Source: a virus. From it: a DNA stretch of 22,566 nt. The notes beneath the pieces were generated by a model. That model was not told the origin of the DNA. It saw only the letters and a list, made by a program, of their open reading frames with translations, and made no database searches. A program made the translations under genes and the position numbers. Position 1 is the first letter of the stretch. Each line of letters starts with the position of its first letter. The DNA lies in IMG/VR virus record IMGVR_UViG_3300044712_001827, positions 1-22,566 of that record, one strand, 5' to 3'. Shown here in pieces: positions 6,601-21,931 of the stretch.

Positions 6601-7099
6601 GCAGAAGCTGATCGAGAACGCCGACATCTCCATGAAGGAGGACAAGCTCGGATCGGTAGCCGACGCCACGGCGGCCTCCCGTGATGCCCTCTGGCAGCTG
6701 GTCGAGCTCAACGGCGGCGTGGTCCCTGCGCTTGAGAGCATGAAGGCCGCGATGGATGCTGTGGGCGCGCCCGGGGCCTCCGGCCCGTCCGGAGCGCTCC
6801 AGTCGGCGGCGGCCGCGATGACCTTCCTCGAGGTGCCCAAGCTGGGCGGCGGCGGCCACGTCACGGCACCGATGCTGGCGATCGTGGGGGACGTCCCCGA
6901 GACGATCGTGCCGGATTCGGTGCAGGGCGCGCTGGGCGCCCAGGTCACCTTGAACGTGTCCGCCCCGGTCCTCCAGTTCCAGGGCCCGGTCTCGAAGGAC
7001 GCGGAGAGCTGGATCCTGGGCGTCGTCAACGAGGCCTGGCGCAACAACACAGAGCAGATGGTTTCGGCCGCGGCCGCGGCCCTGAAGGGGTCTCGCTGA
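3638..7099 (+). CDS. tail tape measure protein
   Basis: At 1153 residues this is the longest gene in the window and sits directly after the tail chaperone, overlapping its stop. The N-terminus (GGGYVELGADTTKLDKGVDD) is typical of tape measure proteins. A hydrophobic Gly/Ala-rich stretch covers about residues 129-171 and may insert into the host membrane. A long charged coiled coil spans about 440-560, with two exact-phase 33-base repeats (5156-5188 and 5189-5221). Ala/Gln-rich helices follow. The C-terminus (LGGGGHVTAPMLAIVGDVPETIVPD) is the common tape measure ending. By the usual ruler rule of about 1.5 angstrom per residue, it predicts a tail of roughly 170 nm. No lysozyme or peptidase motif is obvious. 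Confidence 0.93.
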   Translation: MTEKLGGGYVELGADTTKLDKGVDDAARVTQKLEQRIEKAFAKMADAPKRAQAEMDVWAKTVEKGGGVASLAAAQVEQLARKLQYLQKAGAEVPPALRNLPGMTQPLGLLGKAAKDARADVEQGMRGVASSLGPVGAGLTALGPAGLIAAGAISIVTVEMKALEAVISTLVEWTKGALEYSDNLVETAGQIGFSTDALQEWNFAASQAGAAEGTVSTSAIKLSRALADGSKETRAAIDDLGLSIDELRQYNPEQQFEVITRALAGIADPGLRAAIAADLGLGKNLDYLKLLASNFDEARGAAESFGAKLSGEALASTAEMRDALDRLDGAWAGFKIGIVAAITTSPEAKRALDDVAQAIGQVTAKVLEALPTLVKFVDLHVRMARGAVEAAKAAASGPVGMFAAYVKGSSPGPASTAPEPPSPGRQPGPRRDAEADREATRAAKELARTREAAAEKQKKAEEDLARLIERARTASRISAEKGIQEIVDGFDAARAAHQRYLDKIAQADAKARKDEEEADAKARKEEEEAEAQAEAKIVQAEEERQARTQAWIDNLQEASRVLSQIAGQLEGQSAQLAEAASSAAGLAVSIQSGDIAGAVGQMSGLAASLNEAFFSEPERWETVGADLGRLLGQAVSDEFAKTVSEAMDEEVDKLKADLLTQMGQDEGGFFEGVAEKLARAIADQSGLTDKTFLSLLPEWAEEQGVALSSLTEEMDDFFLTVFDGSADARASMDALLEGVIGELGEGVPSAVGALGDITDHTLSLMASGLLESYQGTATLGDAFAALGQAAEDGTAGAHEQMLELIQSAREAGLEVAEIAKAVAQSLTEGIGSLGKMPPIVTQDDAQAQAELFATTWDAAVQELGIFDAAKQFAPQWEALQKQLGESGFDVSGILGSGISEIMGAYTDEKLGPVLQGAEAVSNLMASLDESGFMTSGALASGEQQAQSIYDRLLAGGMSEESAQQAIGPLLAQLQQAAEDYDLTLSEGTQKLIENADISMKEDKLGSVADATAASRDALWQLVELNGGVVPALESMKAAMDAVGAPGASGPSGALQSAAAAMTFLEVPKLGGGGHVTAPMLAIVGDVPETIVPDSVQGALGAQVTLNVSAPVLQFQGPVSKDAESWILGVVNEAWRNNTEQMVSAAAAALKGSR
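5156..5221 (+). repeat. two tandem 33-base repeats in the tape measure coiled coil
   Basis: Positions 5156-5188 and 5189-5221 encode near-identical 11-residue units, ADAKARKDEEE and ADAKARKEEEE, directly adjacent and in frame. They differ at only a few bases. An 11-residue (hendecad) step fits a coiled coil, and changing the copy number would change tail length. A third, degraded unit (AEAQAEAKIVQAEEE) follows. Confidence 0.8.
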
Positions 7100-8415
7100 T
7101 GGGTCGCCTGCCCGCCGCCCTCCTCGCCGAGCTGCAGCGCCCGGACCCGGACGTGACGACCGTCTTCGAGATCGACCTCCCGGACGGCACGACCTGGAAG
7201 CTCAGCGAGCAGGGCGTCTCGATCCGCGGCGAAGGGCACTACGAGCAGAGGATCAAGGCGGGCAGCCTGTCGGCCTGGTCCATGCACGCGATCGACTGGA
7301 ACTACCGGCTGGTCACGCCGCAGCCCTCGTTCCGGCTGCTCGACCACGATCGACGGCTCTCGGATCTCCTCGGCACGCAGGAGCCGCTCGAGGGCTGCTC
7401 GGCGCGCGCCTACCTCCTGCAGAAGGGCGCGCTCAGGGCTGACTGGTGGCAGAGCTTCGGCGGAATCGTCGCCGCGTTGCCGCGGCAGAGCGAGCGGGAC
7501 GAGTGGGACGTGTCGTTCCGGCCGGATGACCGCGCCCTCGGCAACGACCTGACGCGCACCAAGATCGCCACATACGACTTTCCCAACGCGCGCCAGCGGG
7601 CGGACGAGACGGTGGAGGGCATGGTCGCCCCCATCCTGGTGGGCGTGATCAGCGACCTGGGCGGCACGCAGAGGGGCCGGGTCAAGTGCCGCTGCGTCGA
7701 CACGGTCGCCTACAAGTACCTGGTCGGCCGCGGGTACTACCAGGTCCCCGTGGTGTACTCGCCCGCCGGGACGCGCAAGACGACCGGCTACTCGATCATC
7801 TACGAGCTCCGCGGGGGACGCCTCTACACCCTGATCGACGCCACTGCGGACTGGGGCGATGACGTCTGGTGCGACGTCTACGGCCACGACACGGACGGGG
7901 ACGGGACGGGAGACCTGATCTGCGAGCCGACCGCCGTGGTCACCCACGTGCTCTCCAACTGGGCCGCGGAGGACTGGGAAAGCGGCCCCTGGTTCGGTGC
8001 GCCGGCGTGGCTCAACGTCGCGAATCTCGCCGCGCTGGTGTCGGTATTGCGCGGGCGCGCGGGAGGGGCCTCGTTCGCGTCATCCTGCAAGATCGACGGC
8101 TCCCTCACGGGTCTGGAGTTCCTCCAGCGGTGGAGTGCGAGCGCCGGCGTGCACCCCTATTGGTCGCACGACGGCTTGCTGTCCTGGGCTGTGGACGAGA
8201 TCCACGTCACGGGAGAGGGCGTCTACCCTGCCGCGATCATGCGCCCCTGGCACGACCAGGGGGACTCGCTACGGCACTCGTGCGTCGACCGGCAGTTCCG
8301 GGAGGTCGACATCACCTACGCCGAGACGCAGCAGTTCGAGGTCTTCGATCCTCTCGCGAAGGGTGGCGGACGCGACAGCGTCGACGCGCCCTTCGGAGTC
8401 AACACCCAGCCGTGA
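7099..8415 (+). CDS. distal tail / baseplate-hub-like protein with an EF-hand-type Ca2+ loop
   Basis: The 438-residue protein overlaps the tape measure stop by one base. Its layout resembles tail-tip proteins that I recall from similar clusters. An N-terminal beta domain comes first ('VFEIDLPDGTTWKLSE', 'WSMHAIDWNYRLVTPQPSFRLLD'), then 'DFPNARQRADETVEGMVAPILVGVISD', a segment with 'VDTVAYKYLVGRGYYQVPVVY', and a C-terminal domain with 'TGLEFLQRWSASAGVHPYWSHDGLLSWAVDE'. Residues 264-272 read DTDGDGTGD, a perfect D-x-D-x-D-G-x-x-D calcium-binding loop. The C-terminus ends soon after a strand 'REVDITYAETQQFEVFD', where relatives may continue. A tail-tip structural role is inferred from position; no enzymatic motif is seen. 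Confidence 0.6.
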   Translation: MGRLPAALLAELQRPDPDVTTVFEIDLPDGTTWKLSEQGVSIRGEGHYEQRIKAGSLSAWSMHAIDWNYRLVTPQPSFRLLDHDRRLSDLLGTQEPLEGCSARAYLLQKGALRADWWQSFGGIVAALPRQSERDEWDVSFRPDDRALGNDLTRTKIATYDFPNARQRADETVEGMVAPILVGVISDLGGTQRGRVKCRCVDTVAYKYLVGRGYYQVPVVYSPAGTRKTTGYSIIYELRGGRLYTLIDATADWGDDVWCDVYGHDTDGDGTGDLICEPTAVVTHVLSNWAAEDWESGPWFGAPAWLNVANLAALVSVLRGRAGGASFASSCKIDGSLTGLEFLQRWSASAGVHPYWSHDGLLSWAVDEIHVTGEGVYPAAIMRPWHDQGDSLRHSCVDRQFREVDITYAETQQFEVFDPLAKGGGRDSVDAPFGVNTQP

Positions 8416-12176: not shown

Positions 12177-12382
12177 AGGCCAAGGACGGGCGGTTCTGCC
12201 CACCAGCTGCCCACCAGGGTTCCGCACCCTCTTGGGCTGTCCCGCGTAAGTTGTTGTCTGGTTTGGAGCCGACGCTCGGATTTGAACCGAGGACCTGCTG
12301 ATTACGAAGCAGGCCAAGGCCCTGGGACACTGCGTCTCATGGCTCGTCACTGTCACTGAGCGAGCCGCATAACCCTTGGCCT
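12177..12382 (+). repeat. AGGCCAAGG nonamer, three copies (candidate accessory-factor sites)
   Basis: AGGCCAAGG is found at 12177-12185 and 12311-12319 on the plus strand, and as CCTTGGCCT at 12374-12382. One copy abuts the tRNA-derived core, one lies next to the left GCCCACC pair and one overlaps the proposed integrase promoter. Three copies of a nonamer within about 200 bases is unlikely by chance, and the placement suggests binding by an excisionase or by a core-binding domain. The assignment to a protein is inference. Confidence 0.5.
12264..12308 (-). tRNA. partial tRNA-Thr(CGU): 3' half from anticodon loop to CCA (attachment core identity segment)
   Basis: Read on the minus strand, the segment starts with the anticodon loop TTCGTAA (anticodon CGU), then the 3' anticodon stem TCAGC, variable loop AGGTC, T arm CTCGG-TTCAAAT-CCGAG, the acceptor strand CGTCGGC, discriminator T and CCA. 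The 5' half is absent: no acceptor GCCGACG and no D arm lie upstream of 12308 on that strand. It therefore cannot be a functional tRNA. Phages that integrate in tRNA genes carry exactly such a 3' portion so that the host gene is rebuilt on integration. Confidence 0.85.
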
Positions 12383-12405
12383 AGCTTCTCGTTGGGGCGT
12401 ATCAT
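12376..12405 (+). promoter_or_regulatory. candidate integrase promoter giving a nearly leaderless mRNA
   Basis: TTGGCC (12376-12381) and TATCAT (12400-12405) are separated by 18 bases. The expected transcription start, near 12412, is only a base or two before the integrase ATG at 12414. No ribosome binding site is visible before that ATG, which fits leaderless translation. The -35 element overlaps an inverted AGGCCAAGG copy, and GCCCACC copies lie just downstream, so integrase or its partner could repress this promoter. Confidence 0.4.
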
Positions 12406-12413
12406 GCTCCTCC

Positions 12414-13745
12414 ATGCGCGCCCACCATAGCAAGGGCGATTCTGCCCACCAGCTGCCCACCGGCAAGCATCGACCTGACGCGCTGACCGTCCTCGCGCTG
12501 GAGAAGGCGGCGCGCGGAGGGAAGCGCCAGGAGCTCGCCGACGGGCAGACCCGCGGCCTCTTCGCCTTCGTCCTGGCGGACGGTCGCGTGACGTTCGGTC
12601 TGCGCTACGTGGTCGACGGAGAGCGCCGACGGATGAAGATCGGCGAGTGGAAGGCGGCGCCGACGAGCTCGGGCCTGACGCTGCAGGAGGCGCGCGTCCG
12701 AGCGGGCAAGCTTCTGGCGGAGGGCGACCCGAAGGCGAGAGCCAAGGCTCGCGCGGCTGCGCGCCTGGCGGAACGCGAACGGGACGTTCGAACGCTCGAG
12801 CGGATCACGGAGGCCTGGCTCAAGTCGCGCGAGGCGCGGGCGTGGCGCGAGGCGACGCGGAGGGAGATCGTCAGGGTCGTGCACCGCGAGATCCAGCCCG
12901 CCCTCGGCGCCCACGACCCGAACGACCCGGAGCTGCGCCCGAGGATCGTCAAGCTCATCCGCGGTATCGCCGACGGACACCCGCGGCGCGGAGCGACGAA
13001 GCACGCGCCGAAGAGGGGGCGCCGGCCGGAGCGGAGTCGACCGGCGCCGGTGATGGCGAACCGCGTCCTGACCATCATCCGGATGTGTTACCGCTGGGCT
13101 CTGGCCGAAGAACAGGCCGCCCTCGGCGTGCGCGTCGACGCGACCGCCGGCCTGCGCCGGCCGCACGTGGAGGACGCGGTGCCGCGGGTCTACAGCCCGA
13201 CCGAGATCCGCGCGCTCTTCGCCGCAGCGAAGGCGATCGACGAGCTGCTCGACCTGGTGCCCCTGCTGGCCTACACGATGGCCCGCCTCGGAGAGGGCCT
13301 CGGGGCCGAGGTCCAGGAGGTCGACTTCGACGAGAAGGTCTGGACGATCCCGGCCTCGAGGTCGAAGGACGGACGCCCGCACGTCGTCCCCCTGAACGAC
13401 CCGGCGCTCGAGCTCCTCAAGAAGCGCCGCGACTCCCCCTCTGGCCTCTTCTTCCCGGGACGCTCGATCGAGATTTCAAGCACCGCTCGCCGGCTGTGGC
13501 GTCAGTTGTCGGAGGTGCCCGACGCCACACTGCACGCCTGGCGCGACACGGCGGCCGCAGCGCTGCGCGAGCTGGGGTACTCGACAGACGTGAGAGAGGA
13601 CCTGCTGTCCCACACACCGCCGCGGCTCCACAGGGCCTACCAGGGTGAGTACCGCACGAGCCTGGCGGAGCGCCGCCGCGCGATCGACGCCTGGGGTGAG
13701 AAGCTCGCGCAGATCCTGGCCGCTGGCCAAGGGGCGGCCAGCTAG
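12414..13745 (+). CDS. int: tyrosine recombinase / phage integrase
   Basis: The 443-residue protein has the complete tyrosine recombinase signature: R291 (TMARLGE), K318 in the beta hairpin (SRSKDGRPHVVPL), H374-x-x-R377 (LHAWRDT), H400 (LLSHTP) and nucleophile Y409 (HRAYQGEY). The N-terminus (about 22-115) contains 'FAFVLADGRVTFGLRYVVDGERRRMKIGEW' and 'LTLQEARVRAGKLLAEGDPKA', an arm-binding domain of the P4-integrase type, followed by a core-binding SAM-like helical domain. It would recombine attP with a host tRNA-Thr gene and, with an excisionase, reverse this. It sits next to the tRNA-derived core, and its first codons carry repeat copies. It lacks a visible ribosome binding site at ATG 12414. 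Confidence 0.95.
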   Translation: MRAHHSKGDSAHQLPTGKHRPDALTVLALEKAARGGKRQELADGQTRGLFAFVLADGRVTFGLRYVVDGERRRMKIGEWKAAPTSSGLTLQEARVRAGKLLAEGDPKARAKARAAARLAERERDVRTLERITEAWLKSREARAWREATRREIVRVVHREIQPALGAHDPNDPELRPRIVKLIRGIADGHPRRGATKHAPKRGRRPERSRPAPVMANRVLTIIRMCYRWALAEEQAALGVRVDATAGLRRPHVEDAVPRVYSPTEIRALFAAAKAIDELLDLVPLLAYTMARLGEGLGAEVQEVDFDEKVWTIPASRSKDGRPHVVPLNDPALELLKKRRDSPSGLFFPGRSIEISSTARRLWRQLSEVPDATLHAWRDTAAAALRELGYSTDVREDLLSHTPPRLHRAYQGEYRTSLAERRRAIDAWGEKLAQILAAGQGAAS

Positions 13746-14835: not shown

Positions 14836-15405
14836 CTAGTTCACCACCGAAACGGAGAGCGCGAGGATGCGCCCGGTCTTCGAGTCCTTCACCGGCGTCA
14901 CGTCGTAGATGCCGCTCGCTGTGATCACCCTGAAGGCGATCCCCGCCTGCCGGCTGGTGGCGTTGCGCACGTCCGCTCCGACGTCGGTCGTCAGCACCTG
15001 CTTCACCGCGGAGGCGAAGACCGCGTCTGTGCCAGGGAGCGGGGGGTCAAAGAAGAACACCTTGGCCTGCCGACCACCGATGATCTCGCTCTTGAACGTG
15101 TAGGCATGCTTCCCGAACCGGCCTCTTCCCTCGCGCGCGGCAGGCTTCGCGGTCGCTGTTGGCGCGGCTGGAGCCGCGGCTCGAGGTTGGGGCGTCGGCG
15201 TTCCTGAGCCGGAGAACATCGAGACGACGATCCCGACGACTCCGAGGCCCAGCAGCCCGGCACAACCCATCGTGACGCAGCCGGTCTTCTTCTTCGGCGC
15301 CACGAGCTGTACCTGTGCTGCTCCGGTCTTGAGGTCCCGGCCGCAATGCTTGCAGGCGATGGCTTCGTCCTGAATCTCCTCGGCGCAGTACGGGCACTTC
15401 TTCAT
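14836..15405 (-). CDS. zinc-ribbon, single-pass membrane protein of unknown function
   Basis: Starting at ATG 15405, with AGGGGAGA just upstream, the product is 189 residues. Residues 1-24 are a zinc ribbon (C4-x-x-C7 ... C18-x-x-C21, '[19 protein letters not shown]'). One membrane helix follows at about 43-64, then a Pro/Ala-rich linker (69-92) and a C-terminal beta-rich domain of about 95 residues ('[20 protein letters not shown]', '[18 protein letters not shown]'). The frame is open back to 15765, but that part reads as high-GC shadow and overlaps the neighbouring gene. Together with the two genes upstream on the same strand it forms a likely operon. It resembles zinc-ribbon bacterial membrane proteins of chromosomal type rather than phage proteins. 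Confidence 0.75.
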
Positions 15406-15464
15406 CGGCGGTCTCCCCTCTATCCGATCCTGATCCGGGTTGTCGTCGTCGGTCGCTGTGGCGC

Positions 15465-15701
15465 TCAGTGTCCCTCCCACCAGCGCTGCGCGCCGCACCG
15501 CGGGCACGTCGCCGGCGGCTCGCAGTCCGCCTCGTGTATCGGCCCAGGGTCCACGTCCGGAACCTCCCCATCGGGCCCCCCGGGGAACGCCAGGCACCGG
15601 CACGCCGCCACCCACGTGTGCCCGCACCGCGCGCAGATGCACATCCACGCGGACGCCAGCGCGGGGCGTCCGCGGTGCGAGATGGGGATCTGCGGGTTCA
15701 C
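15465..15701 (-). CDS. small zinc-finger-like protein
   Basis: I chose the GTG at 15701 because it overlaps the stop of the upstream gene (GTGA junction) and follows AAGGA at the right distance. An ATG at 15785 would overlap that gene by 88 bases. The 78-residue product has two pairs of cysteines typical of a zinc ribbon: '[10 protein letters not shown]' near residues 20-29 and '[10 protein letters not shown]' near the C-terminus, separated by an acidic linker. It has no membrane segment. Its place between two zinc-ribbon membrane protein genes, with coupled translation, suggests it belongs to the same pathway. I cannot assign a function. Confidence 0.65.
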
Positions 15702-16423
15702 TTCCTTGGCGCCGCCCCAGACGCGTAGAGTCGCCGCCAGGCCTCTTCCTTCGAGATTTCCCCATTCGCAGTCACCTGGCCGCATTTCACGAGCGTCCAG
15801 CCGGTGACGGGGATCGCACGACTCTCAGGAACGAAGATGAGCGTTACGTTCGCCGCCTTGTACTCCATGATCCTGGTGACAATGAAGGGCCGCGGCCTGT
15901 CCCGGTCTGTCGAGTCGTCTCGGTCGGGCCGGCCGTAGAGAGCGACGATGGCGTCCGGAGTCTTCGGAAGCGAACCGCCTACCATGGTCACTGCCGGCCG
16001 CGCCGGCCGCGCCGCGGGAATCGTCGGCGGCTGGCGCGCGGCCCAAATGAGCAGGGAGATGAAGAACCCCGCGAGGAGCACGAGCACCAAGGCGCCGCCG
16101 AGCAGGAGTCTCAGGTTGGTCTTCCTCAAGGCCCGCTCCTTTTCCTGCTCTTCTGGGTCGTCGCGCCTCCGCTCCGCTTCTGCCTCGAGCTGCTGGCGCC
16201 TCTCCTCGAGGTAACGCCGCTCTTCGGAGAAGTCGTAGGCGAGGCCGCAGCGTGAGCACCGCCAGGGGCGCTGCTTCATCGAGTCGATCATCCAGACGAT
16301 GCCCCACAGGCCGCAGGTGAAGATTGTGAGGAGCGCCCACAACACGTGATTGGGCTGCTCCTGAAGGTGGAGGGTCCGATCCCCGCAATGACTACACGGA
16401 TACGACGCCTGCCTGGTGGACAT
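15698..16423 (-). CDS. zinc-ribbon membrane protein with C-terminal 'DDSTD/RPRP' domain
   Basis: ATG 16423 follows AGGAG by seven bases; a longer frame to 16474 would run upstream through the proposed promoter. The 241-residue protein has C10-x-x-C13 and C56-x-x-C59 forming a split zinc ribbon around a hydrophobic helix (about 27-47). A charged coiled coil (66-102) and a second membrane helix (105-127) come next, with a Pro-rich linker. The C-terminal domain (about 152-236) has '[35 protein letters not shown]' and 'VTLIFVPES'. I associate that C-terminal pattern with uncharacterised proteins of soil bacteria, which suggests recruitment from a host genome. It is the first gene of a three- or four-gene minus-strand operon. 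Confidence 0.75.
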
Positions 16424-17992: not shown

Positions 17993-18565
17993 ATGCCATC
18001 CGCTCCACGCCGGCATCTTCGCGTTCCCGTGGCCGACGAACAAGGGTCAGCCGCGCAGCGCGTGACCCGCGCCGACCGCGCCCTCGAAGGCCTGGCGCAG
18101 CAGTACCCCGACATCGAGCGTGAGCGCCCTGCGATCCTCGATCTGGCGGCCCGCGTGCTCTCCCGCTGCCACGACGAGCTCGACGGCCGCGTCTGCGAGC
18201 TCACGGCGGTCATGAGCGCCAAGCACGCGCGAGAGACGCTGCGCGGAGAGAGGCCCGCGGCCTCCCTGCTCTTCCTCTGCGAGTTGGCACTCGACGAGCC
18301 GGAGGCCCTGGCGGCCGGTATAGCCGAGCTGCTCGGCCCTGCCGGCTTCGAGGTCCGCCCGCTCGGCCAGGCCGTCCCACCCCGCCGGCTTGCGCTCGCC
18401 AGCGCCATTCGCGAGACGGCCGAGGCCTTCGCCGTGGCCACAGCCGCCGAAGAGAACGGGATCGACCCTGAGGAGCAGGCCGTCGTCATCCGCGAGCTCG
18501 ACCAGGCGGGCGAGGCGCTGGCGCAGACGCGCGCGGCGTACGCCCGCGAGGAGAAGCAGAGATGA
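17993..18565 (+). CDS. helical early-operon protein of unknown function (possible degenerate HTH)
   Basis: ATG 17993 follows GAGAGG. The 190-residue product is predicted all-helical. Residues about 66-85 ('ELTAVMSAKHARETLRGERPAASLLFL') resemble the recognition end of an XRE-like HTH ('...sGerp...l'), followed by 'ALDEPEALAAGIAELLGPAGFEV'. The last third is a long charged helix. A regulator of the phage CII or replication-control type is possible but unproven. The stop overlaps the ATG of the AlpA-like gene by four bases, so the two are co-translated. Confidence 0.6.
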   Translation: MPSAPRRHLRVPVADEQGSAAQRVTRADRALEGLAQQYPDIERERPAILDLAARVLSRCHDELDGRVCELTAVMSAKHARETLRGERPAASLLFLCELALDEPEALAAGIAELLGPAGFEVRPLGQAVPPRRLALASAIRETAEAFAVATAAEENGIDPEEQAVVIRELDQAGEALAQTRAAYAREEKQR

Positions 18566-18906
18566 TCCGCATCACGCCCGTCATCGTGGCGACCGACCAG
18601 GGCCCGGCCCTGCTCTCGTGCGCCGAAGCTCGGCGGATCTCAGGCGGGATCTCGCGCGCGACGCAGGCCCGCCTGATCGCCGCGGGCGACTACCCGCAGC
18701 CGATCGTCCTGTCGGTCACGCGTCATGGGAAGCACGCCCGCGTGGCCTGGGTCGAGAGCGAGGTTCGGGCGTGGGTGGCGCGCCGGATCTCCGCATCCCG
18801 CCGCCCTCATACCGTAGTCGGTCCTCAGGACGTCCTTCCCGTAGTCTCCTCGTCCGCCAACCGTGGGGAGGGGGCGCCACAACGTCCCCTCCCTCCCTCC
18901 GCCTGA
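18562..18906 (+). CDS. AlpA-like helix-turn-helix DNA-binding protein (excisionase candidate)
   Basis: The 114-residue product overlaps the upstream stop (ATGA). Residues about 17-80 follow the AlpA/MerR-like winged-helix pattern: 'LLSCAEARRISGGISRATQARLIAAGDYPQPIVL' then the wing '...GKHARVAWVESEVRAWVARRI'. The W-x-E-x-E-V-x-x-W-V ending is characteristic. Proteins of this class activate or repress phage genes or act as excisionases; the presence of an integrase and an attP with a second repeat family makes an excisionase role plausible. The C-terminal 35 residues are low complexity. Confidence 0.7.
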   Translation: MIRITPVIVATDQGPALLSCAEARRISGGISRATQARLIAAGDYPQPIVLSVTRHGKHARVAWVESEVRAWVARRISASRRPHTVVGPQDVLPVVSSSANRGEGAPQRPLPPSA

Positions 18907-19939: not shown

Positions 19940-20267
19940 CAAGTGCGAGGACGTCACCCGGCTCGTCCCCGGGCAGGCCGTGTGGGTGAAGACCCACGTG
20001 CTTCACCAGTGGAAGTGGGGTGTCGTCCAGAAGGTCGGCCGTACGCGCGTCCTCGTCAAGTTCGCGCAGCGGGGCGGTCGCCCGGAGCGGGAGCGGTGGT
20101 TCTACGCCGAAGAGGTCCAGCTCGACCGATCTGCCGCGGAGCCGCCGCCCGCCACAGCCCCGGCCATCACTACCGGAGGCGCCGCTCCCCTCGCAGACGG
20201 CACGTGCATCCATGGCCTGTCGGGGCCCTGCCCGGAGTGCGAAGTCGCCCAGGAGGTAGTGGCGTGA
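19926..20267 (+). CDS. small protein with SH3/KOW-like barrel and C-terminal Cys motif
   Basis: Two in-phase GTG codons are available, 19920 and 19926. I chose 19926 because GGAGG (19916-19920) lies five bases upstream of it. The 113-residue product has 'LVPGQAVWVKTHVLHQWKWGVVQKVGRTRVLVKFAQ', the spacing of a small SH3/KOW-like barrel, then 'ERWFYAEEVQ'. A linker leads to a C-terminal 'CIHGLSGPCPECEVA' with a possible zinc site. It may bind nucleic acid or protein; function is unknown. The TGA overlaps the GTG of the ParB-like gene, and AGGAGG at 20251-20256 is that gene's ribosome binding site. Confidence 0.65.
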   Translation: MSERSKCEDVTRLVPGQAVWVKTHVLHQWKWGVVQKVGRTRVLVKFAQRGGRPERERWFYAEEVQLDRSAAEPPPATAPAITTGGAAPLADGTCIHGLSGPCPECEVAQEVVA

Positions 20268-21931
20268 CGAAGCAGCAAGAGCAGAGCGAGCAGCCCCTCG
20301 ACGTTGTCGGGTTGAAGCTCACGGAGATCCGCCCGTCGACGACGAACCCGCGGAAGTACTTCGACCCGGATCAGCTGGGCGAGCTCTCGGAGAGCATCGC
20401 CAAGCACGGGGTCCTGCAGCCCATCCTGGTCCGCGAGGCGGAGCCGGAGGGCGACACCGACCGCCTGCGCGGCGTGCGCTACGAGATCGTCGCCGGAGAG
20501 CGCCGCTACCGGGCCGCCGAGCTCGCCGGACTCGCCTACATCCCGGCGTTCGTGCGGACGCTGACGGACTCCGAGGCCCTCGAGCTGCAGGTGATCGAGA
20601 ACCTCCAGCGCGCGGACCTCCACCCGCTCGAGGAAGCGGAGGGGTACGAGCAGCTGCAGCGGCTGCACGGCTACCCGGTCGAGGAGCTCGCGGCCAAGGT
20701 GGGCAAGAGCGCCAGCTACATCTACGGCCGCCTGAAGCTCTGCGCGCTCTCGACCGCCGCCCGGGAGGCGTTCTACGCCGGGGACCTCACGGCGACGACG
20801 GCCCTGCTCGTGGCGAGGATCCCGGTACAGGAGCTCCAGGACGAGGCGCTCAAGCAGATCATACAGGGGGACTACGGCTCGGGGCCGATGCGTCTGGAGG
20901 AGGTCCGGGACCTGGTCCAGCGCGACTACATGCTGCGCCTGTCGTCCGCTCCCTTCCCCACCTCGGACCCCGATCTCGTCCCGGAGGCGGGGCCCTGCGG
21001 GACGTGCCCCAAGCGCACGGGCAACCAGCAGGCGCTCTTCGAGGACGTGAAGAGCCCGGACGTCTGCACCGACCCGCGGTGCTTCTCGGCCAAGCGGGAC
21101 GCCTCCTGGGGCAAGGAGGCCGCGGAGCACCAAGCGGCCGGCGGAAAGGTGATCGAGGGCGCGGCCGCGGCGAAGGCCCTCGCGGCCACGCACAGCCACA
21201 ACTCGGCGACCGTGCAGCTGGCGGGGACGTGCATGGCCGACCCGAAGTATCGGACCTGGGGCCAGCTGCTTGGGAAGTCGCTGCTCAAGTCCGACATCGT
21301 CCTCGTGCGAGACGAGCAGCTCCAGGTCCACGGGCTCGTCAACCGGGAGTTGGCGCTCGAGCGGATCGGCGCCAAGCACGAGTGGGCAAAGAAGGCCTTG
21401 ACGAGCGGCGGCGCGGGCTCCTCGAGTCTCTCCGACTCCGATGCCGCCCGCCGGAAGAAGGCGGAGGCCGAGCGCCGCTGGCGGCGGTACCTCTTCGACC
21501 ACGTGGTCGCCCTCATCAAGGGAGACCTCGGCCTCGAGGACCTTCGCGCCATCGCCCTCGCCTACTCCGAGGAGATGTGGCACGAGAGCCGGGGCATGGC
21601 CGTCTCGGTGCTGCTCCCGACCGGCGCCGGAGAGGGCAAGGCCAGGAAGAAGGCGCCCAAACCCAATCCAGAGGGGACCCTCAAGAAGGTGATCTACGGC
21701 TGCACCTCGGAGCGCGACCTCGGCCGGGTCCTGATGGTCTTCGTGCTCGTGCGCGAGCTGGCCGTCTCGGCCTGGGATACGTCCACGCCCGATCGGCTCC
21801 TCGCCGCGGCGAAGCGGCACGGGATCGACGTGAAGGCCCTGCGCGCGGAGATGGCCCGCAGCCAGGCCCCGCCCCCGCCGAAGAAGACGGCCACGAAGGC
21901 CAAGGCAGCGTCTGCGAGGGCCCGGAAGTGA
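20264..21931 (+). CDS. ParB/Spo0J-like DNA-binding protein with Cys-rich insert
   Basis: GTG 20264 follows AGGAGG by seven bases and overlaps the previous stop. The 555-residue protein opens with a ParB N-terminal domain: 'LTEIRPSTTNPRKYFDPDQLGELSESIAKHGVLQPILV', the nucleotide-binding 'GERRYRAAELAG' (residues 79-90), and 'ENLQRADLHPLEEAEGY'. An HTH segment follows ('LAAKVGKSASYIYGRLKL'). Residues about 245-275 carry 'CGTCPKRTGN....DVCTDPRCF', a four-Cys motif seen in some mobile-element ParB relatives, including PRTRC-type proteins. The C-terminal half is helical and ends in a Lys/Ala-rich tail (PPPPKKTATKAKAASARARK), likely DNA-binding. No parA gene is visible. It may partition the genome, or act in replication or recombination. 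Confidence 0.88.
   Translation: MTKQQEQSEQPLDVVGLKLTEIRPSTTNPRKYFDPDQLGELSESIAKHGVLQPILVREAEPEGDTDRLRGVRYEIVAGERRYRAAELAGLAYIPAFVRTLTDSEALELQVIENLQRADLHPLEEAEGYEQLQRLHGYPVEELAAKVGKSASYIYGRLKLCALSTAAREAFYAGDLTATTALLVARIPVQELQDEALKQIIQGDYGSGPMRLEEVRDLVQRDYMLRLSSAPFPTSDPDLVPEAGPCGTCPKRTGNQQALFEDVKSPDVCTDPRCFSAKRDASWGKEAAEHQAAGGKVIEGAAAAKALAATHSHNSATVQLAGTCMADPKYRTWGQLLGKSLLKSDIVLVRDEQLQVHGLVNRELALERIGAKHEWAKKALTSGGAGSSSLSDSDAARRKKAEAERRWRRYLFDHVVALIKGDLGLEDLRAIALAYSEEMWHESRGMAVSVLLPTGAGEGKARKKAPKPNPEGTLKKVIYGCTSERDLGRVLMVFVLVRELAVSAWDTSTPDRLLAAAKRHGIDVKALRAEMARSQAPPPPKKTATKAKAASARARK

Follow-up and report, generated by a model that had tools for sequence, protein, structure and literature searches.

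Attachment sites of the mycobacteriophages can have 43-44-bp tRNA cores, with crossover in the anticodon loop and paired arm sites (PMC10865867, PMC3706429). In the attPs of Boilgate and of Omega/cluster J the core is the 3' half of a tRNA gene, its left end lying in the anticodon loop, and arm-type direct repeats flank it in pairs on either side (PMC10865867, PMC3706429). Cluster J has in addition arm-like sites over the start of int (PMC3706429). Anticodon-centred islands are numerous, with 2083 catalogued, and those of Islander class A have an attP of ~250 bp, a tRNA 3' fragment with which integration rebuilds the gene, and a tyrosine integrase (PMC4383910). In KplE1 the intS promoter lies within the attachment region (attL), and directionality-factor sites next to its −35 box mediate repression (PMC2951348).

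The window analyzed here is a virus record of 22,566 nucleotides, in which the locus at 12177-12461 lies in the interior. On its sequence the locus exemplifies well an architecture that is known and widespread, the anticodon-loop attP of a lambda-type (arm-binding) integrase. The core, the arm-type pairs on both sides and the arm-like sites over the int start are all as in the mycobacteriophage sites, but those phages use tRNA-Lys or tRNA-Leu where the window has tRNA-Thr(CGU), their arm motifs are unrelated, and in cluster J attP is 3' of int whereas here it is 5'. An anticodon-loop 3' part, an adjoining tyrosine integrase and in silico restoration of the tRNA are found here as in Islander class A. 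The window holds a free attP rather than an integrated island, and since int lies on the anticodon side it would end at the tRNA-distal junction, unlike Islander class A. Comparable with KplE1 is a promoter-like consensus match that falls within the attachment region, with candidate directionality-factor sites at −35, but the arm and factor motifs are unrelated and repression, shown for KplE1, is for the window a prediction. The features are collected in Table 1.

Table 1. Features of the predicted attachment site and associated genes, in window coordinates.
Feature	Position	Strand	Basis or remark
AGGCCAAGG copy 1, outside left arm	12177-12185	+	
Left arm, GCCCACC pair 12198-12204 and 12209-12215	12183-12215	+	33-nt direct repeat, 91% to right copy
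attP core: tRNA-Thr(CGU) 3' half, anticodon loop through CCA	12264-12308	−	Matches tRNA-Thr(cgt) genes at 42-44/45 positions
Predicted 7-bp strand-exchange region (anticodon loop, TTACGAA on +)	12302-12308		Placed from where host tRNA identity ends
AGGCCAAGG copy 2, beside core	12311-12319	+	
AGGCCAAGG copy 3 (inverted), over predicted int −35	12374-12382	−	
Promoter-like TTGGCC-18-TATCAT	12376-12405	+	9/12 consensus; mean 0.0 in shuffles; consensus match only
Tyrosine integrase, 443 aa	12414-13745	+	PF00589 1e-12; phrog_1 6.5e-48; alignment to L053 integrase
Single further right-hand GCCCACC	12420-12426		24 bases ahead of 12444
Right arm, GCCCACC pair 12444-12450 and 12455-12461	12429-12461	+	33-nt direct repeat; overlaps int frame start
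AlpA/excisionase-like protein, candidate recombination directionality factor	18562-18906	+	PF05930 2.4e-5; phrog_66 excisionase 1.3e-5; predicted function

We are confident that a temperate tailed phage has its complete attP at 12177-12461, with the anticodon loop in a host tRNA-Thr(CGU) gene as the predicted point of action of its integrase. The first-pass annotation had proposed a complete attP, and the core, the identical arm pairs, the adjoining integrase and the phage genes on both sides support it. The sequences themselves show how the site is built, that its repeats exceed chance expectation, that it recurs in many elements and that the arms are split in an integrated relative. The window offers a complete attP-int module from an unplaced phage lineage, together with a predicted attachment gene.

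The core is 45 nt long, with the minus-strand sequence TTCGTAATCAGCAGGTCCTCGGTTCAAATCCGAGCGTCGGCTCCA. Comparison with 14 intact tRNA-Thr(cgt) genes (ARAGORN calls) confirmed the earlier claim of a 3' half that starts at the anticodon loop. Identity begins exactly at the first base of the loop, where the hosts read CTGA|TTCGTAA and the window CTGC|TTCGTAA. The best host match is 44/45 (L018), and none of the matching genes is exact. An exact search of genome_contigs for the 42-nt core and a search of viral_contigs with a 28-mer gave no match. A pattern of T-arm plus anticodon loop was found at 17 places in bacterial genomes, mostly MAGs of Vicinamibacteria/Acidobacteria and Myxococcota/Deltaproteobacteria; 14 are tRNA-Thr(cgt) by ARAGORN, two are contig ends (L003 and L007) and one is a displaced half (L017). 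Both contig ends, L003 (3594-3623) and L007 (1-30), belong to Myxococcales MAGs and stop at the tRNA-Thr anticodon loop, which is what an assembly break at a duplicated attachment core would produce. Neither Rfam nor ARAGORN calls a whole tRNA in the window, as expected of a half, and joining a host 5' half to the window core in silico gave a tRNA-Thr(cgt) by ARAGORN in 4/4 joins. Inverted repeats CCTGCT/AGCAGG had been noted around the loop. Both are present (12294-12299 and 12308-12313), but CCTGCT belongs to the tRNA stem and variable loop and is shared by all matching host genes. AGCAGG on the phage side is the one addition, and we reject the pair in part as a special signal.

The attP of a lambda-type integrase is expected to carry repeats of an arm-type site to either side of its core. 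Here the arm pairs lie at −113 and +133, both bearing the motif CTGCCCACC. They sit in a 33-nt direct repeat, an addition to the first-pass annotation, each copy of which contains two GCCCACC with an 11-base step (one helical turn). The copies match at 30/33 positions, with 22 nt exactly common to both, compared with a best 33-base direct match of ≤26/33 in 300 dinucleotide shuffles. Dinucleotide shuffles also gave P of about 0.007 for a 7-mer occurring five times, as GCCCACC does, and about 0.013 for a 9-mer occurring three times, as AGGCCAAGG does. The earlier count of two GCCCACC on the left and three on the right stands; the 11-base spacing applies to the left pair and to the right-hand copies at 12444 and 12455, but not to the one at 12420. 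Similarly, there are three copies of AGGCCAAGG as claimed, but one is inverted and the description needs correction.

The integrase gene adjoins the tRNA half and looks intact. Alignment to the L053 integrase and motif positions place the catalytic residues R291, K318, H374, R377, H400 and Y409. The promoter-like site stops 8 nt ahead of the start codon, so that the int transcript may have little or no leader, and there is no evident ribosome-binding site for the start at 12414. With this start the right arm falls within the reading frame. The position of the right arm and the lack of an evident ribosome-binding site count against the attP reading. The third copy of AGGCCAAGG is a candidate directionality-factor or operator site. 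Because the arm sites and AGGCCAAGG overlap the int promoter and start, we speculate, by analogy with intS of KplE1 and with the cluster J phages, that int could be repressed by its own product, or by the AlpA-like factor acting on AGGCCAAGG at the −35 box. A second repeat family is also seen near the core, and again some 60-80 bp further on, in three other loci: L043 (+14, +94), L048 (+23, +85) and L019 (+13, +95). These repeats may be the counterpart of AGGCCAAGG, perhaps as directionality-factor sites.

The N-terminal domain of the integrase would bind the paired GCCCACC arm sites and its catalytic part the core. Strand exchange is predicted within the 7-bp anticodon loop of the host tRNA-Thr(CGU) gene. 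Integration would leave the tRNA gene whole, its 5' half coming from the host and its 3' half from the phage. The host's own 3' half would be displaced to the far end, beside int, which would then probably lie at the tRNA-distal junction.

Relatives of the integrase were sought by protein similarity alone, without using the tRNA half. Sequences of 29-35% identity were found beside the same tRNA half in MAGs of Myxococcota/Deltaproteobacteria. At six of these loci (L019, L020, L021, L043, L048 and L049) a tRNA-Thr(CGU) 3' half is found upstream of int at a distance of <300 bp, with orientation and geometry as in the window; the int regions of L019 and L020 are nearly the same. Viral contigs contained no close integrase relatives, and among the matches listed those in phages were of <30% identity only. 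Searches with the integrase, the sequence and the tail protein (7099-8415) found no close relative of this phage. The tail protein had no relatives in phages or viral contigs and two weak matches in 1/297 genomes from the phylum to which G003, a Vicinamibacteria MAG, belongs. Within the class of G003, the integrase that matches best (L031/L057, 8890-8979) lies beside a whole tRNA-Ser(GGA), and related integrases elsewhere adjoin other tRNA halves. We made a quick tree of 55 integrases, with long branches. It contains no clade of integrases using only tRNA-Thr; the tRNA label changes seven times among the 55, which suggests that the tRNA target shifts repeatedly. The window integrase pairs with L033, beside which the half of another tRNA seems to lie.

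One MAG, G005, contains an element of this kind in its integrated state. The arm pair AATGGTACCC, with a step of 12, lies at −114 by an intact tRNA-Thr (L177); the arm pair AAATGGTACCCA, also with a step of 12, lies at +141 by a displaced half (L183) that adjoins int. Across the displaced half from int are genes for a P-type ATPase and a transketolase, which look like host genes from their translations. On its sequence this is a single element whose two arms integration has separated, as predicted, in contrast to the joined arms of the window. The first-pass annotation had named host DNA on one side of the boundary as the mark of an integrated site. Such a boundary is seen beside a homologous integrase, and the window is without it. 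Two further MAGs each contain five matches to the tRNA-Thr(CGU) 3' half with differing arm motifs (L178, L184, L189, L192 and L194 in G352; L180, L186, L191, L193 and L195 in G006). As read from the sequence, several elements are stacked or scattered there at one tRNA target.

To survey such sites we used the 17-mer GACCTGCTGATTACGAA as query, which matched at least 119 stretches of viral contigs. Of these, 92 were not whole tRNA genes, and a few without a T-arm were dropped. The final set comprised 70 non-redundant half-sites with enough flank, 64 of them from viral contigs, the others being 5 from MAGs and that of the window; some are closely related. A left arm pair was found in 39/70 and a right pair in 43/70, compared with 1.9% (left) and 3.9% (right) in shuffles and 0/53 on either side when the spans were moved 0.8-1.2 kb away. 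The search spans were picked after the first loci had been seen, so the survey is partly post hoc; against this and the relatedness of some sites, the displaced control and the step spectrum serve as safeguards. The pairs lie about 120 bp to the left and 60-160 bp to the right of the loop, distances that the window shares. Steps of 10, 11 and 12 bp occurred 17, 38 and 35 times, with ≤9 for any other step from 8 to 30. Where both pairs are present the same motif occurs on the two sides in 15/24 viral contigs and 0/4 MAG half-sites, compared with 4% for mismatched pairs. Of the 70 half-sites, 60 have an integrase within 3.5 kb, in all four relative positions and orientations. This regularity of pairing, step and distance is a modest addition, which we did not find stated in a limited literature search, and provides a simple finder for the arms of an attP in raw viral contigs. 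A motif shared by the two sides would point to a free attP, and different motifs to an integrated or stacked junction.

The window could in principle represent something other than the attP of a free phage. Similar-looking junctions do occur in MAGs; around one core L020 and L043 carry the left arm of one element and the right arm of another. That the window is likewise an attL or attR, or the junction of two different stacked elements, is nevertheless very improbable, since its arms are identical over 22 nt, where those of the four MAG half-sites with both pairs differ across the core, and phage genes flank it on both sides. To the left is a tail module (neck, tail terminator, major tail protein and tape measure); to the right of the core, the integrase is followed by genes for repressor-like, AlpA/excisionase-like, anti-repressor and ParB proteins. 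It is equally hard to believe that the half is a relic tRNA fragment with no present role in integration, the integrase being inactive or using another site. In its favor, no exact core in genome_contigs confirms a host site, and the integrase is far from all others found, with an identity of 33% at best. Against it are the exact boundary at the loop, the matched arms on both sides and the intact catalytic residues.

A complete attP implies an excised, circular or packaged origin, as had been put forward at first. This is supported, although a head-to-tail array of the same phage in a chromosome would yield the same attP sequence. Elements do pile up at tRNA-Thr, as G352 and G006 show, but those arrays mix arm motifs and hence are of different elements; an array of identical phage is rarer. 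The contig stops before either neighbor in an array would show, its first and last frames running off the ends, so that the window is probably a fragment. We regard the array as unlikely, if less so than the alternatives above, and favor the attP of a free phage genome.

More tentatively, tRNA-Thr(CGU) might be a broad integration hub, at which attPs follow a common arm-pair rule while the motif itself diverges freely, giving each element a private address. If so, such addresses would allow unrelated elements to occupy one tRNA gene in a stack and not excise each other.

The remaining observations concern other genes of the window. In viral contigs, relatives of the ParB-like protein (20264-21931, + strand) have no clear tRNA half beside their integrases. 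A C4 zinc-ribbon frame (14836-15765, − strand) has a 25-aa stretch that is 88% identical in the viral contig L073. The ParB-like protein is up to about 46% identical to proteins of Acidovorax and Variovorax phages, and occurs in apparently integrating phage.
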